64,000 bases of DNA, taken from contig CP082230.1 of the NCBI GenBank assembly GCA_019856515.1, positions 124,001-188,000 on the forward strand, in the 5' to 3' direction. Below the pieces are notes generated by a model. It worked only from the letters and a program-made list of their open reading frames with translations, was not told the origin of the DNA and searched no databases. The position numbers and the translations under genes were made by a program. This document shows, in pieces, positions 778 through 60,927 of this stretch (positions are counted from its first letter, which is position 1; each line of letters opens with the position of its first letter). Source of the stretch: Prolixibacteraceae bacterium (GTDB lineage Bacteria > Bacteroidota > Bacteroidia > Bacteroidales > Prolixibacteraceae).

Positions 778-814
778 GTGTGTGCAAAAGAACATAAAAT
801 AATATGTATTGCAA

Positions 815-852: not shown

Positions 853-857
853 ATCTA

Positions 858-2972: not shown

Positions 2973-2988
2973 ACTGAACGTTTGGTCA
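2971..2988. promoter_or_regulatory. Probable TetR operator palindrome
   Basis: The 18-bp sequence TGACTGAACGTTTGGTCA is an imperfect dyad (TGACnnAACGTTnnGTCA; 7 of 9 pairs match). It overlaps the -7 box and the expected transcription start, 11 bp before the TetR start codon. This fits autorepression by the encoded TetR protein, which is inference. Confidence 0.55.
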
Positions 2989-2999
2989 AAATAAAAATA

Positions 3000-4323: not shown

Positions 4324-4325
4324 TT

Positions 4326-5540: not shown

Positions 5541-5550
5541 TAAGCAAGGA

Positions 5551-6789: not shown

Positions 6790-6798
6790 TTTATCGTT

Positions 6799-7497: not shown

Positions 7498-8693
7498 TTC
7501 GATTACGTATGAATATAATAAAAAAAATATCCATGATCGGGATACTTATCTTGTGCCTTACTTCGGTGAGTGCGCAAGATAAGAAATATCAAGTGTCTGG
7601 TTATGTGAAAAATATGGAGGGGGTCTTCTTTCTTGGTTCCTCCATGGAGGAACAACTGGGGACTAATATGATGGACTATAACCTTACGCATCAAAGGCTT
7701 AACTTTGATTATTTTTTCACTTCAGATTTACTCTTTACAGTACAAATGAGGAATCGATTCTATGTAGGAAGTATGGTTCGAGATATTCCATTTTTTGCAG
7801 ATTATACCGCATATGATAATGGCAAGGTGGATATGTCATGGAATATAGCAACTGGAGATAATTGGTTTTTGAATACCAATATAGATCGTCTATATATCGA
7901 TTATACATATCAGTTATGGAATTTAACAGTTGGTAGGCAGAGAATCAATTGGGGGATAAATTTTGTTTGGAATCCTAATGATCTATTTAATACATACAAC
8001 TATCTCGATTTTGATTATGAAGAGAGACCTGGTGCTGATGCGGTAAAGTTAACTAGATACTTTGGTTATACAGCCTCTCTTGAGGTGGCGTATAAAATGG
8101 CTGATGAAATGATTGATAGAACTCTTGCAGCATCCTATCGTTTCAACCTGAAGGGGTATGATATCCAGATTATAGGAGGTTGGAAAGGTTATGATCTTGT
8201 GTTGGGGACTGGCTGGACTGGTAATATCAAAGGAGCCGGTTTTAGAGGAGAGATGTCATATTTCCATCCAATGACAGGATATAAAGATGATTCTAAGGAA
8301 GCTTTGGTCGCTTCTTTATCATTAGACTATACCTTTCCAAAAGGACTCTATCTTCAAACAAGTTTCCTGTTTAATAGCTTAGGTACAACAGGTGATATCG
8401 ACCAAGAAAATTTGTTGTATGTTGATGCGAATTTATCTGCAAAGAATTTGTCTTTAGGAAAATATGAGGGCTTTGTGCAAGCGAGCTATCAGCTGTCGCC
8501 AATAACCTATATTTCAGGTTCAGTCATTACAAACCTTTCTGACGGATCTGGATATTGTGGTCCCAGTGTTACTTTCTCTATTCTTGATAACCTTGACCTG
8601 ATGACAATGGGGCAAGTGTTCTGGGGAAAAAGCCTTTCGGAATATGGAAATCAGCCTAATAGTGCATATATCCGATTAAAATATAGCTTTTAA
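7494..8693 (+). CDS. Outer-membrane beta-barrel protein of the ABC operon
   Basis: A 399-residue protein with a signal peptide (ISMIGILILCLTSVSAQ) and a mature part rich in alternating aromatic/polar beta strands, ending in the aromatic-terminal strand SAYIRLKYSF seen in outer-membrane barrels. Motifs such as NLTVGRQRINWGINFVWNPNDLFN recall the DUF1302-like porin-type proteins that accompany LolA-like/FtsX operons. It is probably the outer-membrane partner of the transport system encoded upstream. It is translationally coupled to the ATPase by a 4-bp overlap. The family call is tentative; the barrel call is firm. Confidence 0.75.
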   Translation: MIRLRMNIIKKISMIGILILCLTSVSAQDKKYQVSGYVKNMEGVFFLGSSMEEQLGTNMMDYNLTHQRLNFDYFFTSDLLFTVQMRNRFYVGSMVRDIPFFADYTAYDNGKVDMSWNIATGDNWFLNTNIDRLYIDYTYQLWNLTVGRQRINWGINFVWNPNDLFNTYNYLDFDYEERPGADAVKLTRYFGYTASLEVAYKMADEMIDRTLAASYRFNLKGYDIQIIGGWKGYDLVLGTGWTGNIKGAGFRGEMSYFHPMTGYKDDSKEALVASLSLDYTFPKGLYLQTSFLFNSLGTTGDIDQENLLYVDANLSAKNLSLGKYEGFVQASYQLSPITYISGSVITNLSDGSGYCGPSVTFSILDNLDLMTMGQVFWGKSLSEYGNQPNSAYIRLKYSF

Positions 8694-16873: not shown

Positions 16874-19609
16874 TTAAAGAATGACTTTCTTTGTTTCTGA
16901 TTTTCCATTTGAGTAATTAATTTTTACTATATAGATACCTTTCTGTGGTGCTTTTAGAATCACATCATTGCTATTGGGCTTTTGTTGCGATATAAGCACA
17001 CCATTGGGGTTAAATAATTCAATATTCATTATCTGTTTACTACTGCTAATATATGTGTTGTTTTTCCCATATATTACTTTAGATAGAGGGTGCTCAGAAT
17101 CTTTACTCAGGCTTGATGTAGAGTTATTGTTTTGATTCGTTTCCCCCGATTCAAGGATAGTGAATTTTACAGGTTTCCCTGCATCGTGATCTGTTGGAAG
17201 ATACACTTCAATGGTATTATTGTTAAAACTGTTATTCCATAGGTTTCCATTTAAGGTTAAGGTAATGGCACTTACTGAAGGGTCCATTGTTGGGTCATTA
17301 GCTGTGACTTGCACTAATCCATCTACCTCTTCAAGAAGTAGAACTACTTGTTTATTGGTCGAAATGGAGAAGTCTCCTGCATGTAATGTTTTAGTTGTTT
17401 TATGGAATACGACTCCCAGTGAATGAGATAAAGTGCTCTCTGCGGCTTGAATTTCAATACTGTTATCCAGAATGTTCACTGGCATTGTTTTGAAAGCCTC
17501 ATTTGCTGATTGATTCCCACTATAAACCATATATGCATAGGTTGCATTGGTCACATTACGTCCATGATTGATGTACATATGGAAGATGTTCTCTGTCGTA
17601 TTCATATCTTTACGGTTTCGATTCTTATAGTTGAGTTCCTTCCATTTTGTTGATCTGGACTCTGTTTTAAGAACAACTTCACCTGATGTCCATTCGGGGA
17701 CTACTGCATAAGCAAATTTTCCAGGTTGTGAAGCTCCATATAAAGTGGTGTTATTTGGATCAAAAGTGAATGTCTGAGAAGAGTTGTTGTTTTGTATCGC
17801 ATGGATATCATCCCACACTTGGTAGTCTCCTTCCCATGCTGTTTGCTCTATCGTAGTCCAAATATCTCCCTCTTTTGATGTTGTCATATTATCTATATTA
17901 GAGCCTAATGCAAGAAGATAGTCCCCAAAGATAAAGTATGATTTAAATGCTTTTACTCCGTATAAGAAAGTATTTGGATCGCTAGGACTATAGATAATAT
18001 CTTGAGATTTCACATTTGAATCCATCACCTCTAGTTCGTATCCTACAACCGCATTTTCACCACCATTAGTGGCCCCTCCAGAGTAGTTCATCTTGCTACA
18101 ATAACCGCTCCAATTTTTACGAGGCTTAATAGGATCAACATTTTGCCTAACAGTTGTTCCTGGTAGGGATGAATGATTCCATGCTCCCATCGAACGATAG
18201 TGTTCATTTCCATCTTTTAAGAAAAGTGTTACACCAAGGTCAGTATAAAAGTTGTATGCATCATCTTGATTCGGATCAGACTCTGTTCCGTCGGTTCGAT
18301 ATGATGCTGTATTTATAAAGATATAGTAGTCTTTGTTCTTTTTGACAAGATCATCATTATTGTAGAACCATCGAGTCCCTTCATATAACCCTTGATCTTT
18401 ATCACTCATATTGATCCGATTGTTTATCGCGGTGCTCTGAAATGATTTAAGCTCACTAAGTTCGTCTGGACTAAAACTGTCAGACCACTTGTTTATTAGC
18501 TTATCAACAATCTTCTTTGATTTGACAATACTTGGCTTGGTGTTGTTGTAGTTCATTCCATATCTGCCAATGCCTATGGGCAAGAACCCTTTGTAATAGA
18601 ACCAAGAACTGCCACGTATATAGTTTATTAATGCTTCTCTATTTGCGATTGACAACCCTTGCTGCCATGCTGTACCTAAGAAATATCCTAGAATATCAAT
18701 TGCTGCATTGGCTCCATCTATTGGGTAGCCCCATACAATATTTTGTCGTCCATGTCCCCATCCTGCGCCATCAGCTGTAAATCCTTCTGTCCAAAAGTCT
18801 GTCTTAATAGTGTTTTGAGAAACTGTAGAAAGTGCATTTTGAGCCACAGTGCATAATACGTCCATCATGGGTATCGATTTCATTGCAGCAGCAGTTGGTA
18901 GAAGTGATCGGTAAGCGAGGGCATTTCCTCCAACCCACCACACATGATTTCGGAAACGTTCTACACTTACAACATTTTTGTCTGTTTCATCATTTCTATA
19001 TGGTTGTGTCCACGATTGATAACTTAAGTCAACAAGTATTTTGTTTGCTTTGATAAGATTGACATCTGTATTGGTCCTGTTTTCTGCTGCCTCCATCAGG
19101 TCAAACAGACAGAAATAACTGTTAACAGCAGATGTTGGAATAGAAAAACAACTAATATGAAATCGTCCCTTTGAAATAGCCCCTCTTAAGATCTCTATAT
19201 CTCCATAAATGATGATTGTCTTGTATAGTTTGGGAAGTAAGATCTCTATCTCTTCTGATGAGATCTGTTTTTTTTGTATTGCTTCCGATAGACGCCATAC
19301 CCTTAGAAGTGCATCCCCCGTTAATTCACTAACTTCTTTTTGAGGTGTTGTCCACGATTTTGAATACTTTTTGTTTCGTATAATGTCATCTTCTAAACTG
19401 ATAAGGTCCGAGAACCTACCATCATCTTGTAGTTTAGATAAGCAGTATTCTAATGATTGAGCTTTTGCTAACTCATGTCTTCTGTAAGCATGAGTCGAGA
19501 AGTAAGTTCTTAAGTGATCTATCCCTTCCTCCTTGGTTTGACTGCTTGCTTCATGAGTAAACACCCCTACAAAGAGTAGAAGTGTGATTACAATGTAACG
19601 TAAATTCAT
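16874..19609 (-). CDS. Polysaccharide lyase family 8, T9SS-secreted (lyase 1)
   Basis: A 911-residue secreted lyase of the hyaluronate/chondroitin AC lyase family, which cleaves uronic-acid glycans by beta-elimination. A signal peptide (about 1-23) precedes the alpha/alpha-toroid domain, which holds candidate catalytic Asn229 (WWVGGNALAY), His286 and Tyr295 (GWGHGRQNIVWGY; the 9-residue His-Tyr spacing equals that of chondroitin AC lyase). Beta-sandwich domains follow. The last 80 residues are a T9SS type A sorting domain (MNIELFNPNGVLISQQ, GIYIVKINYSNGKSETKKVIL). It is a tandem paralogue of the gene at 20530-23262, nearly identical over long stretches. Substrate (chondroitin, dermatan, hyaluronan or xanthan) is not determined. 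Confidence 0.9.
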   Translation of the reverse strand: MNLRYIVITLLLFVGVFTHEASSQTKEEGIDHLRTYFSTHAYRRHELAKAQSLEYCLSKLQDDGRFSDLISLEDDIIRNKKYSKSWTTPQKEVSELTGDALLRVWRLSEAIQKKQISSEEIEILLPKLYKTIIIYGDIEILRGAISKGRFHISCFSIPTSAVNSYFCLFDLMEAAENRTNTDVNLIKANKILVDLSYQSWTQPYRNDETDKNVVSVERFRNHVWWVGGNALAYRSLLPTAAAMKSIPMMDVLCTVAQNALSTVSQNTIKTDFWTEGFTADGAGWGHGRQNIVWGYPIDGANAAIDILGYFLGTAWQQGLSIANREALINYIRGSSWFYYKGFLPIGIGRYGMNYNNTKPSIVKSKKIVDKLINKWSDSFSPDELSELKSFQSTAINNRINMSDKDQGLYEGTRWFYNNDDLVKKNKDYYIFINTASYRTDGTESDPNQDDAYNFYTDLGVTLFLKDGNEHYRSMGAWNHSSLPGTTVRQNVDPIKPRKNWSGYCSKMNYSGGATNGGENAVVGYELEVMDSNVKSQDIIYSPSDPNTFLYGVKAFKSYFIFGDYLLALGSNIDNMTTSKEGDIWTTIEQTAWEGDYQVWDDIHAIQNNNSSQTFTFDPNNTTLYGASQPGKFAYAVVPEWTSGEVVLKTESRSTKWKELNYKNRNRKDMNTTENIFHMYINHGRNVTNATYAYMVYSGNQSANEAFKTMPVNILDNSIEIQAAESTLSHSLGVVFHKTTKTLHAGDFSISTNKQVVLLLEEVDGLVQVTANDPTMDPSVSAITLTLNGNLWNNSFNNNTIEVYLPTDHDAGKPVKFTILESGETNQNNNSTSSLSKDSEHPLSKVIYGKNNTYISSSKQIMNIELFNPNGVLISQQKPNSNDVILKAPQKGIYIVKINYSNGKSETKKVIL

Positions 19610-20529: not shown

Positions 20530-23262
20530 TTAAAGATATACTTTCTTCATTGCTGATTCGCCGTTTGAGAGAACAATTCTTACAAAATATAATCCTTCTT
20601 GAGGTACTACTAAGGCAGTTTTATTGTTGTTCGGAATTTCTTGTGAAATAAGCATGCCACTTGTGTTAAAGATCTCTACTCGTGAGATTGTTTCTCCACT
20701 TGTTAAGTATGAAATGGTTCCTTCTTTTACTACTTTGATTGATGTTGATTTATGATCAATATTATCTGTATTCACCCCCTCTTTATCTTGGTTTGTTTCA
20801 CCTGATTCAAGGATCGTAAATTTTACTGGTTTTCCAGCATGGTGACCTGTCGGAAGATAGATATCGATGGTATTATTGTTAAAGCTGTTATTCCATAAGT
20901 TGCCATTTAGAGTTAAAGAGATGGAACTTATAGATGGGTCCATGGTAGGGTCATTTGCTGTAATTTGAATTAATCCATCTACCTCTTCAAGCAGTAGAAC
21001 TATTGGCTTGTTGGTTGAAATGGAAAGGTCTCCAGCTTGTAACGTTTTTGTCGTTTTATGAAATACGACCCCCATTGAACGAGATAAAGTGCTCTCAGCA
21101 GCTTGAATTTCAATACTGTTATCCAGAATGTTCACTGGCATTGTTTTGAAAGCCTCATTTGCTGATTGATTCCCACTATAAACCATATATGCATAGGTTG
21201 CATCAGTAACGTTACGTCCATGGTTGATGTACATATGGAATATATCTTCCGTAGTATTCATATCCCCACGATTTCGATTTTTATAGTTGAGCTCTTTCCA
21301 GTTTGTCGATCTTGTTTCCGTTTTAAGAATAACTTCACCCGAAGTCCATTCAGGTACTACTGCATAAGCAAATTTTCCTGGTTGTGAAGCACCATATAAA
21401 GTGGTGTTATTTGAATCAAAAGTGAATGTTTGAGAAGTCCTACTATCTTGTACTGTCGATATGTTATTCCATATTTGATAGTCTCCTTCCCAAACTGTTT
21501 GTTCAATTGTTGTCCATATATCTCCCTCTTTTGATGTTGTCATATTATCGATATTGGAGCCTAATGCCAAAAGATAGTCACCAAAGATAAAGTATGATTT
21601 GAAAGCCCTTACGCCATATATGAATGGATTTGGATCACTTGGATCAGATATAATACCTTCTGATTTCTTTTTGGCATCCATCACTTGCAACTCATATCCA
21701 GCAACAGCATTTTCACCCCCATTTGTAGCACCACCTGCATAATTCATTTTACTGCAATATCCACTCCAATTTGTGCGAGCTACCATAGGACTTACATTCT
21801 GTCTTACAGTAGTTCCAGGTATAGATGTAAGATCCCAGGCACCCATTGAACGATAGTGCTCATTTCCATCTTTCAAGAAAAGAGTCATCCCTAAGTCTGT
21901 GTAGAAGTTATATCGATCCCCCTCATCAGGAGCTGATTCTGTTCCGTCGGTTCTATAAGATGCGGTATTTATAAAAATGTAGTAGTTGCTATTTTTCTTT
22001 ACCAAATCATCATTGTTATAGAACCATCTGGTACCATCATATTCTCCTGGCTCAGCACTACTCATCTCGATAAGATTTGTCTTTGCTGTATTTTGAAATT
22101 GTTGAAGCTCTTTAAGTTCATCAGGATTAAAACTATCACTCCATTTAGATAGTAGTTTGTCTACAATTTTCGTAGACTTAATCGAGTTGGCTACAGTGTT
22201 GTTATAATCCATACCTCCACGTCCAAGTCCGATGGGTAAGAATCCTTTATAATAATACCAAGAGCTACCATGTAAGTAGTTAAAGATTGCATTTTTATTC
22301 GTTACAGAGAGACCTTGTTGCCATGAGGTTCCTAAAAAGTATCCCAATAGATCTAATGCAGCAATACTTCCATCGATTGGGTACCCCCAAACGATACTTT
22401 GGCGACCGTGTCCCCATCCTGCACCATCAGCAGTGAAACCTTCAGTCCAGAAATCTGTCTCAATAGTGTTTTGTGCAACTGTTGAAAGAGCATTTTGTGC
22501 AACTGTACACAGTACATCCATCATAGGGATCGATTTCATTGCAGCAGCAGTTGGAAGTAAAGATCTATATGCTAATGCATTTCCTCCAACCCACCATACG
22601 TGATTTCTGAATCGTTCCACACTGATTACATTGTTATCAGTATTATCGTTTCTAAAAGGTTGTGTCCATGATTGATAACTTAGAGATTTAAGCATTTGAT
22701 TTGCTTGAATAAGATCAGCATCTTTGTTGCTTCCTTTTTCAGCTTCTTCCATCAAATCAAACAGGCAAAAATAACTGTTAACAGCTGCCGTTGGGATTGC
22801 AAAACAACTTGTATGAAAACGCCCAGCAGTTACTGAGCCTCTTAACGTTTCAATGTTACCATATATAATTATCGCTTTGTATAATTTCGGTATAAGTAGG
22901 CTCTTCTCTTCGTTGCTTATTCGATTCTTTTGTATCGCCTCTGCAAGTCTCCAAATGCGAAGTAAGGCATCCCCCGTTAATGTGCTAACTGTCTTCTGAG
23001 GAGTAGTCCAAGGTTTTGAGTATTTCTTATTACTCATGATATCATTTTCTTGATCAATAAGATCTGAGAAGCGTCCATCATTTTGCAGTGTTGTTAGACA
23101 TTCGTCAAGAGGTTTTGCTTTAGCTAATTCGTGTCCTCTGTAAGAATGGTTGGAGAAATAGGTTCTAAAATAATCAATTCCTTCCTCTTTTGTCTGTCCA
23201 ATTGTATCATTGGCAAATATCCCGATAACGATCAGGAGTGTTAAAAGGTAACGTATATTCAT
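20530..23262 (-). CDS. Polysaccharide lyase family 8, T9SS-secreted (lyase 2)
   Basis: A 910-residue paralogue of lyase 1 with the same architecture: signal peptide (about 1-22), toroid with Asn228, His285 and Tyr294 (GWGHGRQSIVWGY), beta-sandwich domains and a T9SS type A tail (RVEIFNTSGMLISQE, GLYFVRIVLSNGESAMKKVYL). The catalytic and central regions are almost identical to lyase 1, while the linker before the sorting domain (about 815-840) differs in sequence and is slightly longer. This suggests duplication, then divergence of the linker. Both probably act outside the cell or on its surface; the sulfatase at 24064-25611 would act on the sulfated products. Confidence 0.9.
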   Translation of the reverse strand: MNIRYLLTLLIVIGIFANDTIGQTKEEGIDYFRTYFSNHSYRGHELAKAKPLDECLTTLQNDGRFSDLIDQENDIMSNKKYSKPWTTPQKTVSTLTGDALLRIWRLAEAIQKNRISNEEKSLLIPKLYKAIIIYGNIETLRGSVTAGRFHTSCFAIPTAAVNSYFCLFDLMEEAEKGSNKDADLIQANQMLKSLSYQSWTQPFRNDNTDNNVISVERFRNHVWWVGGNALAYRSLLPTAAAMKSIPMMDVLCTVAQNALSTVAQNTIETDFWTEGFTADGAGWGHGRQSIVWGYPIDGSIAALDLLGYFLGTSWQQGLSVTNKNAIFNYLHGSSWYYYKGFLPIGLGRGGMDYNNTVANSIKSTKIVDKLLSKWSDSFNPDELKELQQFQNTAKTNLIEMSSAEPGEYDGTRWFYNNDDLVKKNSNYYIFINTASYRTDGTESAPDEGDRYNFYTDLGMTLFLKDGNEHYRSMGAWDLTSIPGTTVRQNVSPMVARTNWSGYCSKMNYAGGATNGGENAVAGYELQVMDAKKKSEGIISDPSDPNPFIYGVRAFKSYFIFGDYLLALGSNIDNMTTSKEGDIWTTIEQTVWEGDYQIWNNISTVQDSRTSQTFTFDSNNTTLYGASQPGKFAYAVVPEWTSGEVILKTETRSTNWKELNYKNRNRGDMNTTEDIFHMYINHGRNVTDATYAYMVYSGNQSANEAFKTMPVNILDNSIEIQAAESTLSRSMGVVFHKTTKTLQAGDLSISTNKPIVLLLEEVDGLIQITANDPTMDPSISSISLTLNGNLWNNSFNNNTIDIYLPTGHHAGKPVKFTILESGETNQDKEGVNTDNIDHKSTSIKVVKEGTISYLTSGETISRVEIFNTSGMLISQEIPNNNKTALVVPQEGLYFVRIVLSNGESAMKKVYL

Positions 23263-24063: not shown

Positions 24064-25611
24064 TTAAAGGGCTGTAATTTCTTGCGATAAATTATTTAGC
24101 TTCTTTAGTTGAGGCCATCCTTTAGAACCTTCTGAGTTTTGTTGTTTTGTCCCTACGGTACTTCGTCCATCATTGATACACTTCATAAGCGTCGTGTACA
24201 TTGTTTTGACTACCTCTGGATTATCTTGGAAAACATTATTGGTCTCTTGTGGGTCTTTTGCAATATTATAGAGTTGAATGTTTGGTAAGTTAAGCTCTTT
24301 GGCTTTTTTAGGTTTTGGAGCAGACCATCCACCTGATCCTGCACATAGCTCTAATTTCCAATCTCCTTGTCTAATTGCGAAGCTACCATTGATAGAGTGA
24401 TGTATTGTGTAATCACGAGTGTATTCTCCTGTATTTCCTTTTTGTAACATAGATAGCATGCTGTAACTATCTACTGCATCACGGTCTTCTAATGGTTGCT
24501 CAATGATTTCAGCAGCAGTAGCCATAAAGTCAGTTGTACAAGATGTTTTATCGATCTTTGTTCCTGCTTTAATACCTTTGGGCCAATGAACAATGAAAGG
24601 AACATGGTGTCCTCCTTCAAAGATATCTGCCTTATGCCCACGATAATTGGCACTCGGGTCATGTCCTTTTTCTTTTAAAACATCAAAACGAGCCATCGGT
24701 GAACATCCATTATCAGATGTAAAGACTACAATTGTATTTTTATCAATACCTTGCTTCTTCAATTCTGCCATTAAATCTCCTACATAATGGTCAATCATCA
24801 TTACAAAGTCACCATATGGATTCAATCCACTTTTTCCTTGCCACTCTTTCGTTGGAACAATTGGAGTGTGAGGTGATGGAATAGGAAGATATAAAAAGAA
24901 TGGTTTCTTATTCGTAACTTGTTCAGCAACATATTTCTTTGCACGTCTAAAGAAGTTTGGCGTTGCATCTTCAATCGTAAAGTCTGGAGCGATCCATCCT
25001 TTTCGATAAAACCCATATCCCGTTACTTTGTCTATCTTACGAGTAGGAATTGCAGTTGCTTTTCCATTTTCAACATATACATATGGTGGGATATCTAAAG
25101 AGGCAGCATGACCATAGGCATAATCAAAACCTACATCATTGGGATTATTTGTTACTGGTTTGCTGAAGTCAATACTTTTATCTTCTTTCATGGTCCAATC
25201 CCAACCAAGGTGCCATTTGCCAATAAAAGCTGTTTGGTATCCTTTTTTGTGAAATAGATCGGCAACGGTATTTCTCGAAGAGTCAATTAATGCTTTTGAA
25301 TCCCCCCACGTTACTCCATTTTTCAATGATGAACGCCAATTGTATCTTCCAGTTAAGATCCCATACCTTGTAGGTGTACATACTGCAGATGAGGTGTGCA
25401 TGTCAGTAAACATTGCACCTTCCTTAGCCAACTGGTTTAAGTGAGGGGTTTTGATTTTACATGATGAGTTAAATGCTTCGATATCTCCATAACCTAGATC
25501 ATCAGCTAGGATATATATAACATTAGGTTGTGTTGGTTGAGGGGCCTCTTTTGTTCCACAAGATGCTAAAAAAGCAGATAGAACAAGCCACCCATGTTTT
25601 AATGGTTTCAT
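24064..25611 (-). CDS. Sulfatase lipoprotein (arylsulfatase/GalNAc-6-sulfatase type)
   Basis: A 515-residue family S1 sulfatase with a lipobox (LASC, Cys18). The metal site begins at Asp37-Asp38 (YILADDLGYGD). The nucleophile is Cys78 in the signature CTPTR, which must be converted to formylglycine by a maturase not encoded in this window. Further active-site segments include KWHLG, SPHTPIVP and FTSDNGCSP. The layout resembles GalNAc-6-sulfatase and arylsulfatase A proteins. Next to two PL8 lyases it probably desulfates glycosaminoglycan fragments; regiospecificity is inference. Confidence 0.9.
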   Translation of the reverse strand: MKPLKHGWLVLSAFLASCGTKEAPQPTQPNVIYILADDLGYGDIEAFNSSCKIKTPHLNQLAKEGAMFTDMHTSSAVCTPTRYGILTGRYNWRSSLKNGVTWGDSKALIDSSRNTVADLFHKKGYQTAFIGKWHLGWDWTMKEDKSIDFSKPVTNNPNDVGFDYAYGHAASLDIPPYVYVENGKATAIPTRKIDKVTGYGFYRKGWIAPDFTIEDATPNFFRRAKKYVAEQVTNKKPFFLYLPIPSPHTPIVPTKEWQGKSGLNPYGDFVMMIDHYVGDLMAELKKQGIDKNTIVVFTSDNGCSPMARFDVLKEKGHDPSANYRGHKADIFEGGHHVPFIVHWPKGIKAGTKIDKTSCTTDFMATAAEIIEQPLEDRDAVDSYSMLSMLQKGNTGEYTRDYTIHHSINGSFAIRQGDWKLELCAGSGGWSAPKPKKAKELNLPNIQLYNIAKDPQETNNVFQDNPEVVKTMYTTLMKCINDGRSTVGTKQQNSEGSKGWPQLKKLNNLSQEITAL

Positions 25612-51749: not shown

Positions 51750-52412
51750 TCAATTTGAACGGATATCAAAATGTTGGAGTACTTGGTTTTCTGTGTTCTG
51801 TTGTATCAGTTGTTTGATTTTCTGATTGAAGTAGCCATACTGTTTCTTTGACATGCCTTCAGTATACTCTTTCTTGTTCTCTAAGCTATACATATTCTCA
51901 AGAGAGAAGAGGGTACGTGGATAGTCTGTGATACGTATTTTATCTCCTAATAGTTCTGCTCTAAACCAGAAGGCATCTTTATCCTTTATGCTTTGTACTT
52001 GAACACGATATAGCTTGCGTTCATTGTATTTTTTTGCTGTCTGTTGTAATTTGGTTTTGTTTTCGGGTAGAATGATTTGTACTTCAATATTGTCTAATAG
52101 ATAGTATTGGTCTTCTGATTTTCCATCGATGTTTACGGTGAAATGGTTCTTCTGATCTAGCAGTAGATTATTTGAGAACTTAAGAATAAAGTTCATAAAA
52201 TAACCGTATGCTAGCGTTTCTGCAATGGCTTTCTCTCTTTTCTCTTTGTTGCTTCTGTATTGTATAAATAATACAACCATTAAAATGATGATAGAGCAAC
52301 AGACCACCGTAGTGGTGGACTGTTTAAACCCTAATGATGTAATAGAGGTGACCGCAACTGTAAGAATCGCAGTGAAGATCTCTTTTAGTGGTAATATTTT
52401 GGCAATATTCAT
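51750..52412 (-). CDS. Two-TM protein with STING-like domain (putative TM-STING), RADAR operon
   Basis: A 220-residue protein with two N-terminal TM helices (about 12-29 and 34-51), a charged junction and a cytosolic domain (62-220). Read against animal and bacterial STING from memory: AETLAYGYFMNFI (64-76) matches the first dimer/ligand helix (HGLAWSYYIGYL in human), IEVQIILPEN (109-118) matches the RLYILLPLD strand, the arginine/lysine-rich turn NERKLYRVQV lies at the lid strand, and ITDYPRTLFSLENMYS (161-176) matches EYATPLQTLFAMSQYS in the cyclic-dinucleotide pocket. The order and spacing agree. There is no TIR domain. Its start overlaps the rdrB stop by 4 bp (ATGA). The alternative is a SLATT-type RADAR accessory (RdrD), which also has two TM helices. 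Confidence 0.7.
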   Translation of the reverse strand: MNIAKILPLKEIFTAILTVAVTSITSLGFKQSTTTVVCCSIIILMVVLFIQYRSNKEKREKAIAETLAYGYFMNFILKFSNNLLLDQKNHFTVNIDGKSEDQYYLLDNIEVQIILPENKTKLQQTAKKYNERKLYRVQVQSIKDKDAFWFRAELLGDKIRITDYPRTLFSLENMYSLENKKEYTEGMSKKQYGYFNQKIKQLIQQNTENQVLQHFDIRSN

Positions 52413-55297
52413 CTTTTCTCTTTGTTATGGTTTCTAAAACTCATCTGTAATCCCATGGTACGGACATGTTCCAGCCAATGATAGATCTGCGACTCTTTGT
52501 AGATTCGATTTCCTTCTTTGTCTGTCACCTTCTCTAAGGCTCCTGCCATTAGTGCATATTCGTTCTCCAAGGTGGTACTAAACACCCCTTGGTCATCCGT
52601 ATTGATAGAGACGCATAGTTGGGCACATTCATTGAGCTTCTCTTGATCGTATACCAGTCCCGTATTGAAAAATTCCTTAATGGGATGGTTGTCGTAGCGT
52701 CGGAAAGTTCCGATAAGCACATTGGACGATGGATTACACTCAATGGCAATATGTCGACTGGCGATCTCTCTTTGCATTGCTTTTTGGACTGCCGTAATAA
52801 GCTGCTTGTAGGTGTGTGATACTTTAAACTGTTTGACCTCTTCACCTCTGCTTCTTACCTGATAGTTAAAGTGGTAGGCGTGGTAGAGGGCATTGACCAA
52901 ACGGGAGCTACGTTTTACGCCTCCTGTGGGATACATACAGTTCTCTCCCGCTTCATCCCATAGCGAATACATTCGTTTGCGTTGGAAATAGCCTGTGGAG
53001 GTGTAGTAATAAGGGTTGTCTCCTCGTAACTTCCACGCTTCAAAATAGAGCGTTGGTGTGATATGGGTCATATGAAATGGTCCATCTTCTTCGGATGCAA
53101 CAAATTCGTTGTAGTCATTGATCTGATTCTGAAGATTCTCACCTTGTATGCCATTTGCTCCTTTGTGCTGATGCTCGTTGAGAAAATCACCATAGATATC
53201 CTGAAAGAGTACATCAAATTCTCGTTCTAGGGAGCCACAGTAGGCTGAAAATTGGGTGAGGTTATACTTGTGGATACGAGAAATTAGCCAAGAATAGTTG
53301 TCCAATAGCCAGTGTCGAGGAAGCATAATCACACTGTGTTTACATCGATAGTAGGCTTCGGCATCGATCCCTAAGGCGAGCGCATGACCTATACGATCCC
53401 CATTGTCTAGGTTAAGGAATTTGATCGATTCGTCGATGGCTCTTAGCCCATCCGCTATATCATAGAAGTCTTCTCCTGCATGAAATGTGGCAGGGAGTTT
53501 CTCTGGAAGCTCCTCAAGAAGGTTGTCGTCGTTGTGTGAAGAGCGGCAGAATTTCAGATAGCGAAAGGTTTGGGCAAAGACTTCAGGACGTGCACTAAAC
53601 TCTGAAGAGGCGGCATCGATTCCCTGTATCCTTTTTCCCTCCTTTCTGGTACTCCACTTGGTATTCATAAGGGAAAGAGCTTGTACTTTAAGAGTTTTTC
53701 TCAATTGGTCATGGCGGCATAAGGCGATATGGGTTGCCGTTTCATATATCGTCTTGGATATTTCTTTCCCTAGTTTTTTAATTGAGCTGTCGGGCTTTTT
53801 TATAAAGTGAATATTGTAGAACAACGGACTTTCGTTTTTGTCTTTGAGGTAAGGCAGGTCTTGGTCCAAGCCATTTTTTGCCATAAAATGTTCTACCTCA
53901 TTGAACTTCTCTAAACAGAGCCGGTCGTTTTTTCGGATGTTAGCACACATTTCGTCAGGGGTGTCTTCTGGTGTTATACGGGCCTCTAAAGATTGGATGG
54001 TTTGATTTAAAAGCGTGGTCGAGACAGCCATACTGCATAGTGCAGAACCAAACAGAGGGTAACCATCTAAGAAGTGCCATTTCCTATTTTGATAGGCGGA
54101 GAAATTGGCAAACCCGACTTGTTTGTTTTGTTGAATAATTTCGTCTCTGAATTGTTGTTTGATCAATAGATACAGGTAGAGTAGGTCTTCATAGGGTGCA
54201 AATGCTGGGGTTTCTGCAGCAACCTTTCGAAAACAGCGATAGAGGAACCACCGTTCCCCTGTCAGTAGTTCGTTGGCACCTCTGTTTTTTGCGACAATCT
54301 GATGTCCATAGCAGTAGTCTGGTGTACCAGTAGTATCAGCAATGGTATAGGCGGTGCCATATTGCATTTTCAATGCATCGATCTTTACTTGCAGTTGGGA
54401 GAGGCGAGATCGAATTTCCTTTTTGCCTGCCTCCATCCAACTCTGTTCCGTCTGTTTTGAGAAGAGTTCATCTAAGGTCGTTGCTTTTTTATTTTCACTA
54501 CTCTCTTTTTCGTTTCCGTCTATCTTTTCTGTTTTCGTTTCTCTACATGGATCTCCAGCTGCATCGATAATATCTAGCTCTTTAATCTTATTGAAAAGCA
54601 TACAGCGAATATAAGCCGCTTTCCAGACCAGTAGTTCTAAATCATTTTTAGAGGTAAAACGTTCGTTTCTAGATTTATGTGTTTTAAATTTATTAAAGGC
54701 TTTTGATCTGCCTTCGATATTATTCATCAGGTTGATCCAGCTTAAATCATAATGGTTGGAAGAACCAAAAAGATGGAAGTGGTTCTCTGCAATTCCCTTA
54801 TTTAAAAGGTTTTTAAGACGTAAGTTATTGGTACTAATGATAGGCGCCCAGTCAAAGTAGTTGCGCTGGTGACGATATCTTAGATCTTCATATGCCGTAA
54901 ACAGGCATGTAAAGAGATCTTCGCCAAGAAGGAGACTAAGCTCCCTCCAGCGCAACATATGATCAAACTGTATCGTCGGTTTGTTATGTTCTAATGTTAG
55001 TACATGGGTACAGAAGCGATATATCAAACCAAATATATGTGCCCTACGTCCTTCATTGCGATCCGACTTGGCCCAATCTTCTTGTACTTTCTGTAGCATT
55101 CTTTCCGAATCGTCCATCGAATAACCCGAGATCTCTTCGAACCCTCGATGCGTTATATCTTCATCATAAAGTATCTCTTCAATCAGACGTAATGCTTTCC
55201 TATGCGTAATACTATTACTACTATATCGTTTTTTTATTAAGTCTGAAATATCTACTTGCCGAAAGAATAACTGTATGGATGCTCTAAGTGTTTTCAT
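52409..55297 (-). CDS. rdrB: RADAR adenosine deaminase RdrB
   Basis: A 962-residue divergent adenosine deaminase. The metal and catalytic residues of the ADA barrel are all present: His173/His175 in AENHFHLFGS, His606 and Glu609 in FHAGEDFYD, His638 in GDRIGHALALG, IECNPSSNVLIG (852-863) and Asp901-Asp902 in NTDDQGVFST. A large insertion (about 185-600) between the first and second zinc motifs makes it far longer than housekeeping deaminases and is typical of RdrB. In RADAR phage defence RdrB forms large shells with RdrA and deaminates adenosine in RNA and/or nucleotides upon infection. It starts 36 bp after the second RdrA-type gene and overlaps the STING-like gene. Confidence 0.88.
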   Translation of the reverse strand: MKTLRASIQLFFRQVDISDLIKKRYSSNSITHRKALRLIEEILYDEDITHRGFEEISGYSMDDSERMLQKVQEDWAKSDRNEGRRAHIFGLIYRFCTHVLTLEHNKPTIQFDHMLRWRELSLLLGEDLFTCLFTAYEDLRYRHQRNYFDWAPIISTNNLRLKNLLNKGIAENHFHLFGSSNHYDLSWINLMNNIEGRSKAFNKFKTHKSRNERFTSKNDLELLVWKAAYIRCMLFNKIKELDIIDAAGDPCRETKTEKIDGNEKESSENKKATTLDELFSKQTEQSWMEAGKKEIRSRLSQLQVKIDALKMQYGTAYTIADTTGTPDYCYGHQIVAKNRGANELLTGERWFLYRCFRKVAAETPAFAPYEDLLYLYLLIKQQFRDEIIQQNKQVGFANFSAYQNRKWHFLDGYPLFGSALCSMAVSTTLLNQTIQSLEARITPEDTPDEMCANIRKNDRLCLEKFNEVEHFMAKNGLDQDLPYLKDKNESPLFYNIHFIKKPDSSIKKLGKEISKTIYETATHIALCRHDQLRKTLKVQALSLMNTKWSTRKEGKRIQGIDAASSEFSARPEVFAQTFRYLKFCRSSHNDDNLLEELPEKLPATFHAGEDFYDIADGLRAIDESIKFLNLDNGDRIGHALALGIDAEAYYRCKHSVIMLPRHWLLDNYSWLISRIHKYNLTQFSAYCGSLEREFDVLFQDIYGDFLNEHQHKGANGIQGENLQNQINDYNEFVASEEDGPFHMTHITPTLYFEAWKLRGDNPYYYTSTGYFQRKRMYSLWDEAGENCMYPTGGVKRSSRLVNALYHAYHFNYQVRSRGEEVKQFKVSHTYKQLITAVQKAMQREIASRHIAIECNPSSNVLIGTFRRYDNHPIKEFFNTGLVYDQEKLNECAQLCVSINTDDQGVFSTTLENEYALMAGALEKVTDKEGNRIYKESQIYHWLEHVRTMGLQMSFRNHNKEKR

Positions 55298-55333
55298 ATT
55301 GATTATTTATCGTCTAAAACTTGTCACATTCTA

Positions 55334-58138
55334 TTAACGGATTGCAGTTTCCTTAATTTTTGCAGCTCTTCCTGCTTCTATCTTTGCGATATAATTATAT
55401 TTACTGATGTTAAAAAAATCAATAAAGTTATGTTCGTTAAAGGATCTTATACTAGATTTCTTTGTTAACTGTTGATCCTTATCTAATTCTTTTGTTGCCT
55501 CTATATGTTTAATAAAATCCTCTGTAATCCATCCAATTATCTCTTTTGTAGTAGCATCGAGATTGCTTACTCCTTTTAATTTATATAAATATTTATCCTT
55601 ATTAGAGTCATCTCTAAGAAGTTCTTCAAATCTATTTAATGGGATAATTAGAGAGTTAAAGTGTTTAAGAGGATTACTTTCTTTTTCTGTTTGGCTACGA
55701 AGAAGGTGATTTTGCAAGTTGTTAAACGAAGTTAAAATGTTATTTTTTAGATTGGCATTTAAATTTAAATTTTTCAGGTCATTAAGCACTTGAGTTATTA
55801 ATGATTGGAATGTGTCAAAATCAGACTTGCCTGTTAGAATATTTATTTCTTTGCTAAAAATAGACTCAATTAGGTCGATACTATGGAAAAATATGTTTAT
55901 GAATTTATTGTCTTTGGTTTGAAGAAGAGGTTTCCATAGGTCAAATAATAGAATAAAAGTATCTGGAGTTATTTGTTTTTGTACATCTTGTAAGGCATAA
56001 TTTTGAGTGAATGATCTACGATTTTGGGGTCTTGAATTTGATTTTTCTGTGATGCTGTAATTTGGAGGATAGTAGGTGAGAAACGGTTGTAGCTCTTTAG
56101 GAATAATTATACTCTTGTCTTCGTTAGAATTAATTTTGAAGTTTGTTGAAGATAAAATATCTACAAGGAATACTGACGAATTATCTCCATTATGATTTTC
56201 ATCCATCTCTTTTATTAATGGTACAATGCTTTCACCAATCATGGTTTGTGCATCACAAAGCGTATCTTCGTTTATCATCTGTCCGTATAATTCTATGCTG
56301 TAGATTAGCTTGATAGCTTGAATCATCTGTTTGGCATGATCAATATAGATGCAGTTTTCCAGTGTATTGATAAAATATAGTACGTCTCTTAAAGAGATAT
56401 TATCTGATTTATTGTCAGTGTTTAATATCTGCATTAGAAGATCATAATGGCTGTTTTGTCTCTTGTTTTCCTTGATGAACAATATATCTTGAAGGAAATA
56501 AGCGCACATATCTCCTTCTATTTTATTCTTTTTACCTGCTGTGTCAATTAAGTAGTTGCGTATATTCTGAATTAAGTGTTTGTTCTTGCATTTTGGGGTG
56601 GTGTTAATAAAATTTTCTACTATGTTAACTTGATTTATATGAAGGATTTCAGGAAGATAATTGATTAAAACGTACTCCTTAAACCTTGAAAGGTTTTGAT
56701 CTGATTCATGGTTTGGTAGGATTCCTGTTAATTGTATTTCAGACAATTGAGGATCTTTGATGACTACTTTTGACAAATTATCTAAGGCACATCGGTATGA
56801 TTCCAACTCCTTGTCATTGATCTGAATATTCTCCTTCTTTAAGTTCTCTATAATTAATGCTTCTATGTTGCGTTGGGGAACTTCAACTACATTAATTGAA
56901 TCTGACTTAGAGGCGAGGCTATTTAATAAATAGAGCATTCCTCTCAATCTTCTTAAGGTCTTTGGTATAAGAAAATGTGGTTCTTGGGGAGGAGCAATAA
57001 AGATTAATCCCGTGAGTTGGTAAATGGTTTGAAGAATAAATTCTTCGATGCTTATTTCTGTTGAACCATCATCGTCTTTGGGGTTCTTTGGAAGTGGTTC
57101 GTGTTTCCAATTAATCAACTGAAGGGCTGTCGTTTTAACAAAAAGTTCGGTTGCATTGAGATGGATTCGACGGTTGTGAGGAATGAGTTTTATTAGATAG
57201 TTTACAGCAAACTCTTTTGGATCTTCATATAATCGTTTGGCATCGATCATTGTTTTAAAGCTCGTACGAATATCTTGTTCCTTGACATTGGTCAACTGCT
57301 CCATATTGACTGCCATTAGAATGACTACATTGGGAATCATTAGATATTTACGGATCTGTTCTCCCATATCAGTTGCAGCTTTGGTGTTAAGATCGAAATC
57401 ATCGATAGGAATAACTAATATATCTTGGTGTTTCAATGGATCTCGACTACAACTATTTTTTTTATGGTAGGTGAGGTATTCTTTTACCAACTTTTTAAAA
57501 TCATCTCTTAAATTTGCCCCCGAAGATAGTTTAGAAAGAGTTTCGAGTGCTTCTCCTTCATAACGTTTGTCTTCTTTGGTGTGGATGGCAGCCAATGATT
57601 TATAGACCTTGGAGTAGGCTTCCAAAAGTTTTCTTTTACCCTCTTTTTCGAGGTGTTCATTTTCATGCCTGCCTTGTATTTTTTCTATAGTTTTGGCAAA
57701 CATCTTTGCTAAAACCACTTCAAAGAGGTTCTCATTGTTCTCAAAAAGAGAGGGGTCGATGGTATCGGTAATATGGAAATGATGTTGCTGTAAAGATCTT
57801 GAGTGATGCTGAAATACTTCTTTATCATCTTTATGGATATGCTCTAAGTAAGCTGCAAAGCTTAGCATAGCAGAGGTCTTTCCTGTTCCTCGTTCTCCAC
57901 AAAATGCGATAATATTATTAAAGTCTTGTTCTTGATAACGGAGATAACTAGGGTATTTCTCTCCACAAGGATTGATGGCTTTGCATTGTTTTTGAATAAT
58001 CTCTACAGTACAACCTGCTGCAATTCGATATTTGTCGTAGAATATGGATTTGTTTAGTTGTTCCCAACATTCTACTTTGGCATTAAATTGCTCATGAAGG
58101 TCTACGACCAATGTATTTTTAAAATTTTGTGTAGTCAT
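55334..58138 (-). CDS. rdrA: RADAR ATPase RdrA (second copy)
   Basis: A 934-residue AAA+/STAND-like NTPase. Walker A is GERGTGKT (81-88) in NNIIAFCGERGTGKTSAML. Walker B is LVIPIDDFDLN with Asp246-Asp247, followed by sensor-1 VVILMAVNMEQLTN and RLYEDPKEFAVNYLIKLIP. The last 550 residues are helical and poorly conserved. Architecture and place before rdrB identify it as RdrA, which assembles into a ring that activates RdrB. It is a paralogue of the gene at 58153-60927: the first 350 residues correspond closely, the rest has drifted. Start 14 bp after the first copy's stop, so both are in one operon. Confidence 0.85.
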   Translation of the reverse strand: MTTQNFKNTLVVDLHEQFNAKVECWEQLNKSIFYDKYRIAAGCTVEIIQKQCKAINPCGEKYPSYLRYQEQDFNNIIAFCGERGTGKTSAMLSFAAYLEHIHKDDKEVFQHHSRSLQQHHFHITDTIDPSLFENNENLFEVVLAKMFAKTIEKIQGRHENEHLEKEGKRKLLEAYSKVYKSLAAIHTKEDKRYEGEALETLSKLSSGANLRDDFKKLVKEYLTYHKKNSCSRDPLKHQDILVIPIDDFDLNTKAATDMGEQIRKYLMIPNVVILMAVNMEQLTNVKEQDIRTSFKTMIDAKRLYEDPKEFAVNYLIKLIPHNRRIHLNATELFVKTTALQLINWKHEPLPKNPKDDDGSTEISIEEFILQTIYQLTGLIFIAPPQEPHFLIPKTLRRLRGMLYLLNSLASKSDSINVVEVPQRNIEALIIENLKKENIQINDKELESYRCALDNLSKVVIKDPQLSEIQLTGILPNHESDQNLSRFKEYVLINYLPEILHINQVNIVENFINTTPKCKNKHLIQNIRNYLIDTAGKKNKIEGDMCAYFLQDILFIKENKRQNSHYDLLMQILNTDNKSDNISLRDVLYFINTLENCIYIDHAKQMIQAIKLIYSIELYGQMINEDTLCDAQTMIGESIVPLIKEMDENHNGDNSSVFLVDILSSTNFKINSNEDKSIIIPKELQPFLTYYPPNYSITEKSNSRPQNRRSFTQNYALQDVQKQITPDTFILLFDLWKPLLQTKDNKFINIFFHSIDLIESIFSKEINILTGKSDFDTFQSLITQVLNDLKNLNLNANLKNNILTSFNNLQNHLLRSQTEKESNPLKHFNSLIIPLNRFEELLRDDSNKDKYLYKLKGVSNLDATTKEIIGWITEDFIKHIEATKELDKDQQLTKKSSIRSFNEHNFIDFFNISKYNYIAKIEAGRAAKIKETAIR

Positions 58139-58152
58139 AATCGGTGTCGGTT

Positions 58153-60927
58153 TTAGAACATATTTGTGAAAACGAGAATGTCATGAATTTGCTCTTCTGT
58201 GCTTTTCTTGATATATTCTTGATTCTGATATCTTTTTTTTAGGCTTTTGAGTAAGCTTGGATTGTACCCTTCAAAAATGTCAGGGTACATTTCGAGTAAT
58301 TTGTCAAGAACAATTACATCTGTTAGCTGAGAGTATTGGGATCGTAAAATAGATTCGATAACTTTCGGTGAATACATTTTATGATCTTTAATCCTAGTTC
58401 TTAGTTCATCGATGTCATCCTTTAGACTATAAATATTCTGTTCATACTTCCGTCTCTCTCTGTCTCGAGTGACTTTATCTCGTCTATTTATTTCTTCAAT
58501 TGTGTAATATTTTTGGTGTTCTGTTTCGACATTGTATACGTAAAGGTATTTTGTGATATTTGTAAACAATGAAATAAGGTTCTTGCTACTAAAACTATGA
58601 ATAGAGTGTCGTCTAAGAATAGTATTGCTATTCATTGTATCTTCTATTTTCTGAAAAAAATCATGAATGAGCGGTAAAGTATTATTGTTTATCACCTCAT
58701 CAATATCATTACTTGATGTAGGGTATGGGTTTTCGTATATTGTAGGAATTTCGCTGATCCCCATGAATAATTGGTCTATTACATCAAGACTCAATAACCA
58801 TGGTTTCTTTTTGACTTCTTTTAGCGCGATGTATTCGTTGAAAACATTAAGATGAATTCCAATTCTTTCATTAATGAAATACGGATCACTATCAGATTTA
58901 ATAACCCTTGCTGTGAGCTCTGTCGTAGAAGATGTTTTTCTGCGATCTAAGTAATTATGAATTACATATAGATTACTTCCTTCATCTTGTGCAACTACAT
59001 AATTGTTTTGTTGAAATATGTTTAGTTCGTCTATGATTTCTTTATATCTCTCATGGTCTTTATATTTATCTACTGGTCTAAGTTTTAAGAATGTGTCGTC
59101 TAGATTAATTCGAATATTATAAGATGAATTTATTTGATGCCAAGTTTGTAATTCAACGGTTTTTTTGAAAAATGGTAAGATACTCTCTCCGCAAAGAACT
59201 TCAAAATCTAGTGTCTTATTATCGATAATTGCTTTTGAAAAGAGTTCAAGATAAATTACAACTCGTATTGTTTCTATTAATGTATAGTTGTTATCAATAT
59301 CTGCTACATTCGATAATTTAGATAGAATATACCTTACATCTCTTAGAGATATATTGTGGGATAAATTATCTGAATTGTATATATCTCGAAGAAGTTGATC
59401 TGGAGTGTCGGCTGAATTGACTTTTGAGAATAGGCTCTCTACTTGTATGGGTTGATTTGTTCCAATACGTTTTCTAAACCTTTTATCAAGAAGTCTATAG
59501 ATTCCATCGATCGTTATTTTATTTTGATATTGAGCATCTGCGGCAATAATAGATTCGACAAGTTCTTTTGAGTCTTTATCAAGGTTGTCATTAATTATTT
59601 GCTTGTATATATATTTCTTGAATTGTTTAAAGTTTTGTTTCTGTATCTCACTAATTGGTTGTTCTTTGCATTTTCCAAGTGTAGGAGAAAGTTTACCTAA
59701 TTGGTAGACTAAAGTCCTAAATTTCCTTAATGTTTTGGGGATTAGGAAGTGTGTTCCAAGGTTGTTTGGGATAAAAAGTAATCCCGTTAATTCATAAAGA
59801 ATATTGAGAGTAAATTCTTCAATATTCTCAATAGACCTGCCTTTATTTGTTTGAGGTTCTCGATGCCTCCATTGCTTTAATTGAAGTGTAGTGTCTTTTG
59901 CAAAATCATCTAGAAAACAGAGTTGTATTCTTCTTGAGTATGGAATAAGTTTTACCAAATAGTTTACGGCAAACTCCTTGGGATCCTCATAAAGACGGTC
60001 TGCCTTAATTAGAGTTTCAAATTTTTTGCGAACGGCTTGTTCTTTGACATTTGTTAGTTGATCCATATTAACCGCCATCAGAATTACTACTTGAGGAATC
60101 ATCAGATATTTGCGTATCTGTTCGCCCATTTCTGTTGCGGCTTCCGTGTTAAGGTCAAAATCATCGATGGGGATTAATAACACCCCAGGTTTGTTGGTGT
60201 AATGGTCATGGTTATGGAATCGCAAGTACGTTTTAACTAGCTTCTTGAAATTGTCTCTAAGGTTGGAACCGCATGCCAAGCGACTTAAGGTTTCGAGTGC
60301 TTCGCCTTTGTAGCGATCCTCTTCTTTTTGGTGGATGGCTCCCAGATCTTTATAGACGGTAGAGAAGAGTTCGAGAAGTTGTCGTTTGCCTTCTTTCTCT
60401 TGATGTTCGTTGGGATGACTTCTTTGAATTTTTTGAATGGTCTTGGAGAACATTTTTGCTAAGACCAGCTCAAATAGGTTTTCGTTGTTTTCGAATGCCG
60501 AAGGGTCAATCACATCCGTGACATGGTATTCGTAGTGGTGTAAGTGTTTTGATGTGTTCTCTTTGTCATTATAGATGGGATGGTCTGTTCCCCAAAAAGT
60601 CTTTTCGCTCTCTTTGTTTGACTCGACAAGGAATTGGGCGTAGCTGATCATGGTGGAGGTTTTTCCAGTACCTCTCTCACCACAAAAAGCGATAATGTTA
60701 TTAAAATCCTGTTCTTTGTACTTGTCTAAAGGGTTGAGGTGGTTACAACCTCTTTTTTTACAAGCATCTTCGACCAACCTGTCGCTTTGTTCTAAGATTT
60801 CGAGGGTGCATTTCCCAGCTTCTTGATACTGTTTGCGATAGATGGATGCTTCCATCGCATGTACATCTTCGATGATGGCATTGAATTGATCGTTCATATC
60901 AATGACCAATGTCTGTGTTTTTTTCAT
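58153..60927 (-). CDS. rdrA: RADAR ATPase RdrA (first copy)
   Basis: A 924-residue AAA+ ATPase and the first gene of the defence operon. Walker A is GERGTGKT (83-90). Walker B is LLIPIDDFDLN with Asp255-Asp256, then VVILMAVNMDQLTN and RLYEDPKEFAVNYLVKLIP. The C-terminal part contains charged helical segments (about 800-860, RDKVTRDRERRKYEQNIYSLKDDIDELRTRIKDH) that may coil. All ATPase residues are intact in both copies, so neither looks dead. Two different RdrA subunits could form a mixed ring or recognise different triggers; this is inference. Confidence 0.85.
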   Translation of the reverse strand: MKKTQTLVIDMNDQFNAIIEDVHAMEASIYRKQYQEAGKCTLEILEQSDRLVEDACKKRGCNHLNPLDKYKEQDFNNIIAFCGERGTGKTSTMISYAQFLVESNKESEKTFWGTDHPIYNDKENTSKHLHHYEYHVTDVIDPSAFENNENLFELVLAKMFSKTIQKIQRSHPNEHQEKEGKRQLLELFSTVYKDLGAIHQKEEDRYKGEALETLSRLACGSNLRDNFKKLVKTYLRFHNHDHYTNKPGVLLIPIDDFDLNTEAATEMGEQIRKYLMIPQVVILMAVNMDQLTNVKEQAVRKKFETLIKADRLYEDPKEFAVNYLVKLIPYSRRIQLCFLDDFAKDTTLQLKQWRHREPQTNKGRSIENIEEFTLNILYELTGLLFIPNNLGTHFLIPKTLRKFRTLVYQLGKLSPTLGKCKEQPISEIQKQNFKQFKKYIYKQIINDNLDKDSKELVESIIAADAQYQNKITIDGIYRLLDKRFRKRIGTNQPIQVESLFSKVNSADTPDQLLRDIYNSDNLSHNISLRDVRYILSKLSNVADIDNNYTLIETIRVVIYLELFSKAIIDNKTLDFEVLCGESILPFFKKTVELQTWHQINSSYNIRINLDDTFLKLRPVDKYKDHERYKEIIDELNIFQQNNYVVAQDEGSNLYVIHNYLDRRKTSSTTELTARVIKSDSDPYFINERIGIHLNVFNEYIALKEVKKKPWLLSLDVIDQLFMGISEIPTIYENPYPTSSNDIDEVINNNTLPLIHDFFQKIEDTMNSNTILRRHSIHSFSSKNLISLFTNITKYLYVYNVETEHQKYYTIEEINRRDKVTRDRERRKYEQNIYSLKDDIDELRTRIKDHKMYSPKVIESILRSQYSQLTDVIVLDKLLEMYPDIFEGYNPSLLKSLKKRYQNQEYIKKSTEEQIHDILVFTNMF

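Follow-up and report, generated by a model that had tools for sequence, protein, structure and literature searches.

A RADAR-type defence operon of a Prolixibacteraceae bacterium with a membrane-anchored STING-domain protein as its fourth gene

A stretch of 64,000 nucleotides from the 5.19-Mb genome of a Prolixibacteraceae bacterium (G000:C1:124001-188000; hereafter the window) carries an operon of the defence system RADAR (restriction by an adenosine deaminase acting on RNA), in which two RdrA-type ATPase genes and one RdrB-type deaminase gene are followed by a gene for a membrane-anchored, transmembrane (TM) STING-domain protein, TM-STING. The four open reading frames (ORFs), encoding 924, 934, 962 and 220 residues, lie in a row on the minus strand with intergenic gaps of 14 and 36 bp, and the stop codon of rdrB overlaps the start codon of the TM-STING gene by 4 bp (ATGA) (Table 1). 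An original prediction, made from the sequence alone, had proposed both this layout and a STING-type fourth gene; the ORF coordinates confirm the former, and the latter is also kept in a congener, at the locus L003. The assignment of the genes to RADAR and STING is close to certain, and RADAR-STING is a real, recurrent and rare variant of RADAR. No description of RADAR together with STING was found in the literature searched on RADAR, RdrA/RdrB and prok_STING. In that literature, bacterial STING is treated as an effector of the cyclic-oligonucleotide-based anti-phage signalling system (CBASS) that is switched on by a neighbouring cyclase. Here, a STING is kept within another defence system and comes from a family seen only without STING-type cyclases.

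Table 1. Features of the RADAR-STING operon in window coordinates
Feature	Position	Strand	Evidence
rdrA1: RdrA-type AAA+ ATPase, 924 aa, first gene	58153..60927	-	NCBIfam, Walker A/B, structure profile
rdrA2: second RdrA-type AAA+ ATPase, 934 aa	55334..58138	-	NCBIfam, PADLOC, Walker A/B
rdrB: RdrB-type adenosine deaminase, 962 aa, ADA motifs intact	52409..55297	-	NCBIfam, structure profile, motifs
TM-STING: membrane-anchored prok_STING protein, 220 aa	51750..52412	-	Pfam PF20300, AlphaFold, fold searches
N-terminal membrane hairpin of TM-STING, about residues 9-55, likely	52248..52388	-	AlphaFold helices, L003 hydropathy, weak PADLOC SLATT match
STING domain, residues 64-201	51810..52223	-	
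Altered lid DKDAFWFRA, residues 144-152, replacing Rx(Y/F) or RxR of CBASS STINGs	51957..51983	-	alignments, profile alignment to solved STINGs

RdrB turns ATP and dATP into inosine nucleotides, and other RADAR systems show ATP-to-ITP conversion and a giant RdrA-RdrB complex (PMC9994260). The window RdrB matches the NCBIfam RdrB model over residues 166-957 (9.7e-51, 173 bits) and contains HFH173, HAGED606, IGHA636 and TDD900, so that the predicted zinc and catalytic motifs of the adenosine deaminase (ADA) type are all in place. GERGTGKT (Walker A), from which two ATPases had been predicted, is likewise found together with PIDDFD (Walker B) in rdrA1 and rdrA2 alike. Their matches to the NCBIfam RdrA model reach 1.1e-19 (70.5 bits) and 1.9e-26 (92.8 bits), respectively, and PADLOC recognizes rdrB and, as RdrA, rdrA2 (3e-18). 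Because these NCBIfam scores stay under the curated cut-offs (800 for RdrB, 600 for RdrA), the genes are of the RADAR type but belong to a divergent branch. Consistently, the alignment profile of RdrB (A1) matches the solved structures 8fnv/8fnw at 1.5e-39, and a profile including rdrA1 (A6) matches 8hr7 at 7.7e-11; these entries, labelled adenosine deaminase and archaeal ATPase in the result table, we take to be the RADAR deaminase and the RADAR RdrA. When contigs were scanned with 32 RdrB sequences and the best 80 of 272 loci were kept, an RdrA-like ORF accompanied rdrB in 75 of the 80. The window and L003 thus share with known RADAR the tandem of AAA+ ATPase and ADA-type deaminase genes, with the active-site motifs present in the window; the window operon differs in its two RdrA genes and its STING-domain membrane protein. 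Viral contigs contain two RdrB relatives and no TM-STING relatives, and tblastn found no plasmid-borne relatives.

The two ATPases share 44% identity across their N-terminal two thirds, and their C-terminal parts are barely alignable. The single RdrA of L003 is 47% identical to rdrA1 and 44% to rdrA2. Two complete RdrA ORFs occur together in none of the 80 related loci, in 65 of which 6.2 kb or more of sequence lies upstream of rdrB; the two RdrA pieces in L063 belong to one split RdrA. The crown of RdrA is the docking place of RdrB, and its C-terminal part has been suggested as the phage sensor (PMC9994260). Two sensors feeding a single deaminase is a natural inference, and having two RdrAs in one operon allows the suggested phage sensing by the C-terminus to be put to a natural test.

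The 220-residue protein scores 56.7 bits against Pfam prok_STING (PF20300; cut-off 27.1) and is found at 8.6e-15 by a local profile of 15 STINGs from which its own family was excluded (L115 and L116 among those left out; L117 was also left out of the STING profiles). A phmmer search of the PDB with the single sequence returned no STING, and a family profile returned STINGs. The comparison of a structural model with STING and SLATT proteins, as originally suggested, favours STING: the AlphaFold model (mean predicted local distance difference test score 87.6) has STINGs as its top matches in fold searches. The identity predicted for this protein therefore stands, and the two TM helices predicted with it are only likely, because AlphaFold places its N-terminal helices (residues 9-26, and from 33 running into a long helix) with lower confidence and a hydropathy scan of the L003 homologue calls one membrane segment. 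A SLATT identity was rejected, since the match to the PADLOC reverse transcriptase (RT)-associated SLATT model is weak (0.0095) and Pfam and fold both indicate STING. The RADAR subtypes given in PMC7699616, citing Gao et al. 2020, are rdrAB, Csx27-associated and SLATT-associated; the fourth gene here, a prok_STING gene, is of neither the SLATT nor the Csx27 type. It shares its place at the operon end with 2-TM genes that overlap the rdrB stop codon in the related loci L059, L061 and L070, whose DUF4231 match is above the cut-off in L070 only and below it in L059 and L061.

STING profiles run over the locus ORFs found a STING behind rdrB in one of the 80 RdrB loci, L003; five of the 80 have less than 1 kb past rdrB, two of these less than 250 bp. 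The small gene was therefore not found in 79 loci and is present in the closest one, and the pairing withstands the neighbourhood comparison proposed for it. L003 belongs to a Prolixibacteraceae metagenome-assembled genome, its coordinates are those of G854, a genome of the window's genus, and its order is rdrA-rdrB-STING with the STING gene 2 bp downstream of rdrB. Over aligned codons, the window and L003 are 72% identical in STING, 69% in RdrB and 49% in RdrA1. First, second and third codon positions differ by 27/9/58% in STING and by 28/16/54% in rdrB. The 9% divergence at second against 58% at third positions indicates purifying selection on STING, and the pairing is not chance, because the same gene stands behind rdrB in L003 under such selection. 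In the same locus, a gene for a 595-residue membrane protein lies behind RADAR-STING (L003 13580-15367); it has no PADLOC match and a Pfam match below the cut-off, and may be a further defence gene.

Within the window's family, 7 of 140 genomes were matched (G000, G854, G855, G887, G909 and, weakly, G796 and G795). G887 and G909 carry TM-STINGs outside RADAR, G796 has a TM-STING adjoining a cGAS/DncV-like nucleotidyltransferase (CD-NTase) and G795 has a short STING-like protein. G335, the fourth genome of the genus, gave no STING match. In G855, a member of the genus that is 77% complete, STING residues 94-219 persist as a remnant with 75% identity. The 16.8-kb contig bearing it (L133), the part of G855 that was searched, has no RADAR genes; it matches window 52116-42136 to the right of the remnant, and its positions 1-7512, to the left, match G000 DNA beyond the window. 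Most simply, RADAR-STING would once have stood at this site and then been mostly lost. The reverse order, in which RADAR arrived next to a resident STING, is less simple, and the L003 pairing speaks against it.

Bacterial TM-STINGs have been noted as being of unclear function (PMC10732462). A profile search of 5.8 billion proteins returned 101 proteins, all annotated with PF20300 and mostly of 216-223 residues. In a maximum-likelihood tree of 59 rows, a branch with support 99/94 separates 51 family rows, including both RADAR-linked ones, from TIR-STINGs and CBASS TM-STINGs; the tree has long branches, and the position of the RADAR pair within the family is not firm. Twelve family loci outside RADAR were examined: two in the window's family, two with proteins including one named Rhodohalobacter, and eight in a Bacteroidia family of which 397 genomes were screened (8 strong matches, 4 weak besides). 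No match to RdrA or RdrB occurs at any of the 12, and a profile built from nine STING-type CD-NTases, which recovers 9/9 in a leave-one-out control and is blind to DncV-type NTases, finds no such enzyme there; distant partners would be missed because the stretches span only 7 to 20 kb. By comparison, a CD-NTase adjoins 10 of 11 STINGs of other kinds (nine TIR-STINGs and the TM-STINGs L119 and L135), and none was noted beside L114. STINGs without a STING-type CD-NTase nearby exist outside the TM-STING family too (L118, L120-L123). Three flavobacterial copies have common neighbours, including a carB-like gene (by eye), which suggests vertical inheritance. Length, tree side and the lid FWxRA ... 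[DE]xPRTLFSL are shared by the window protein and the short TM-STINGs named 'STING domain-containing protein' in Confluentibacter, Rhodohalobacter and Muriicola; the window and L003 members lie in a RADAR operon, whereas those of the 12 other loci do not.

Several loci recorded in this survey have arrangements of their own. A TM-STING gene lies immediately behind a DUF4440/SnoaL-like gene in L115 (8436-9596), possibly as a two-gene unit, and L116 (9173-10389) looks alike by eye. In L155 (5470-6634), a TM-STING gene outside RADAR adjoins an mscL-like gene (by eye), which fits an osmotic or cyclic di-AMP (c-di-AMP) theme. A TIR-STING gene in L120 (7297-9763, genome G682) follows by a few bases a CDA-type deaminase gene (PF00383), itself preceded by a 2-TM gene; this stretch has no STING-type CD-NTase, and its STING stands beside a deaminase of a fold other than that of RdrB. 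Lone proteins of about 196 residues occur in L121 (9188-9778; PF20300, no membrane segment by hydropathy) and L134 (5759-6346; STING-like, with a weak profile match and no membrane segment, by eye).

The lid of CBASS STINGs carries the motif Rx(Y/F) or RxR, in which the first arginine reads guanine (PMC8748872, PMC9402430). At its place, this motif is absent from all 101 family rows. The window protein has D144-x-D146; the first position is Asp in the window and L003, and the second is E, T, S, D, G or Q throughout the family and never Y, F or R. TIR-STINGs have the first arginine in 9/9. The lid register is the same when the profile is aligned to solved STINGs, most clearly for 8hwi and unsurely for 6wt4. 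The window STING and the CBASS STINGs (TM-STING and TIR-STING, or Cap12) share the prok_STING fold and the dimer-pocket residues of the first helix (in the family, Y71 and N74 in 101/101 and F75 in 100/101), and the CBASS TM-STING also has an N-terminal membrane part. However, the window STING lacks a CD-NTase partner and the arginine lid, and the 99/94 branch lies between them. New near-invariant residues of the family are W149, R166 and R151 (101, 100 and 93 of 101). This protein is thus not a STING of the CBASS type, given the missing lid motif and a family found only without STING-type CD-NTases.

The ElSTING contacts with c-di-AMP given in PMC10739871 include Y165, N168, F169, D251, T254, T255 and the lid residues P233/L234, and lid R230/F232 point away from this ligand. 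By alignment, these contacts map to Y71, N74, F75, D163, R166, T167, A147 and F148. The position of D163 is acidic (E in 72 and D in 28 of the 101 rows), that of A147 is P in 88 and that of F148 is F or Y in 93. Among Y71, N74, F75, D163 and T167, all but one are invariant or nearly so in the family; the remaining position holds D or E. As far as residues can tell, the requirements for c-di-AMP appear mostly kept and those for cyclic di-GMP (c-di-GMP) mostly lost. Both c-di-GMP and 3'3'-cyclic GMP-AMP (3'3'-cGAMP), which the original prediction had named as candidate ligands, are disfavoured because the lid motif has no counterpart in a family that is found only without STING-type CD-NTases. 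According to PMC10739871, Burroughs and Aravind (2020) reported STINGs that lack the lid motifs as well as a linkage of STING genes to DisA; neither non-canonical STINGs nor the c-di-AMP idea is therefore new.

Possible signal sources were searched for in 16 genomes (the window's, three congeners with intact, remnant or no STING, and 12 with TM-STINGs outside RADAR), 14 of which carry an intact member of the TM-STING family. GGDEF is found in 0/16 (8/14 controls) and the diadenylate cyclase domain (DAC) in 16/16. SMODS (PF18144) is found in 4/16; this cannot show absence elsewhere, because the model misses six of seven CD-NTases beside STINGs. The nine-sequence profile, run over the window, L003 and neighbouring G000 DNA rather than genome-wide, detects no STING-type CD-NTase. 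The other genes of the operon are RdrA, RdrA and RdrB, and a remnant of CBASS was rejected for want of a STING-type CD-NTase around.

We tentatively read the locus, with a confidence a little short of an even bet, as an anti-phage RADAR operon in which STING replaces the SLATT or Csx27 partner as a membrane-directed, nucleotide-sensing arm. Two RdrA rings with a common AAA+ part and differing C-terminal parts would act on one RdrB shell, which would turn ATP into ITP. TM-STING, made by coupled translation after RdrB, would be placed in the inner membrane, where a nucleotide in its dimer pocket would change its oligomeric state, so that it would serve as a second, membrane-directed arm of the same abortive response. 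Its ligand would be a c-di-AMP-like adenine nucleotide, and probably not c-di-GMP; if so, STING may read the adenylate pool drained by RdrB. The parts of this proposal differ in strength. That STING functions together with RADAR is very probable, and a ligand other than c-di-GMP is probable from the pocket residues. A role as membrane arm is somewhat favoured, and readout of c-di-AMP or adenylate is possible but doubtful. More broadly, it is conceivable, but on balance unlikely, that the short TM-STINGs form a third, CBASS-independent class in Bacteroidota and relatives, with c-di-AMP or the adenylate pool as the housekeeping signal that it reads, and that RADAR captured one member of this class so that ATP destruction by RdrB evokes a membrane response without a dedicated cyclase. 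Such an operon would link nucleotide-pool destruction to nucleotide sensing, and it makes testable both the signal of non-CBASS STINGs and the role of RADAR's membrane partners.

Several observations weigh against this proposal. The intact pairing is seen in two genomes of one genus, besides a metagenomic cluster (P0002; 12 member sequences, 6 contigs) whose protein is near-identical to the L003 STING and whose genomic context was not readable. The support from DAC is weak because 11 of 14 control genomes have it as well. Three of the 101 family rows keep the first lid arginine (P0215, P0219 and P0220, as RxE or RxD), which lowers the confidence in a ligand other than c-di-GMP; these three might differ in ligand from the rest of the family. 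The ElSTING phosphate contact T254 is R166 here, and ElTIR-STING binds c-di-AMP yet stays unactivated (PMC10739871). PADLOC gives no match for rdrA1, and the C-terminal divergence of rdrA1 and rdrA2 could reflect decay or different partners. Finally, the host has a CBASS CD-NTase, and its genome was not searched throughout for STING-type enzymes.

STING might instead be no effector at all but a membrane anchor and nucleotide-gated regulator that holds RdrA and RdrB at the inner membrane and releases or activates them upon ligand binding, much as CARF governs the ADA domain of Cad1. Cad1 of type III CRISPR, an ADA-type ATP deaminase switched on by cyclic oligoadenylates (PMC12669630), provides a precedent, and like the window operon it joins a nucleotide-sensing domain to an enzyme of the ADA type that deaminates ATP. 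A match of RdrB to the PADLOC CARF-ADA model (2.3e-8) and the ATGA overlap between the rdrB and STING genes also fit this account. However, CARF is fused to ADA in Cad1, whereas the window STING is a separate membrane protein, and RADAR has been described as consisting of two proteins, RdrA and RdrB (PMC9994260). Such a regulator is an unlikely account of the locus.

That TM-STING stands behind rdrB by happenstance, without shared function, is favoured by the 12 family loci without RADAR, by the confinement of the intact pairing to one genus and by G855, which keeps a STING remnant without RADAR beside it. Several points argue against this and make hitchhiking quite unlikely: rdrB and STING overlap by ATGA in the window and lie 2 bp apart in L003, the gene order is shared by two genomes that diverge by about 30% in both proteins, and the constraint on STING at least equals that on rdrB.

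A response in trans to c-di-GMP or cGAMP from a CD-NTase elsewhere in the genome is very unlikely. The host does have a CBASS locus about 1.8 Mb away, with E2-like, DncV-like NTase and SAVED genes, the last encoding an HNH-like N-terminus (by eye), and a STING-type CD-NTase could be hidden, since PF18144 sees one in seven. However, the lid motif is lost, that locus owns its SAVED effector, and no STING-type CD-NTase lies in the window, in L003 or near the 12 TM-STINGs outside RADAR. The CBASS locus itself (L087 9059-11853; G000:C1, about 1994-1997 kb) is set amid type I restriction-like genes (by eye).

Least probable is that STING senses an inosine nucleotide produced by RdrB, be it ITP or a cyclic dinucleotide containing inosine, and passes RADAR activity on to the membrane: RdrB does make inosine nucleotides from ATP and dATP, and the pocket keeps stacking aromatics and, where the window protein has D163, an acidic side chain, but the identical pocket is kept in family members without RADAR nearby and is thus not shaped by the RdrB product, and we know of no cyclase for inosine.

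A promoter scan gave 49 sites, no excess over the mean of 46.7 in shuffled sequence, and terminator-like sites numbered 11 against 6.8. Elsewhere in the window, by eye, two adjacent paralogues of about 910 residues (window 16874-19609 and 20530-23262) resemble secreted polysaccharide lyases, and a sulfatase-like gene (window 24064-25611) lies close to them.

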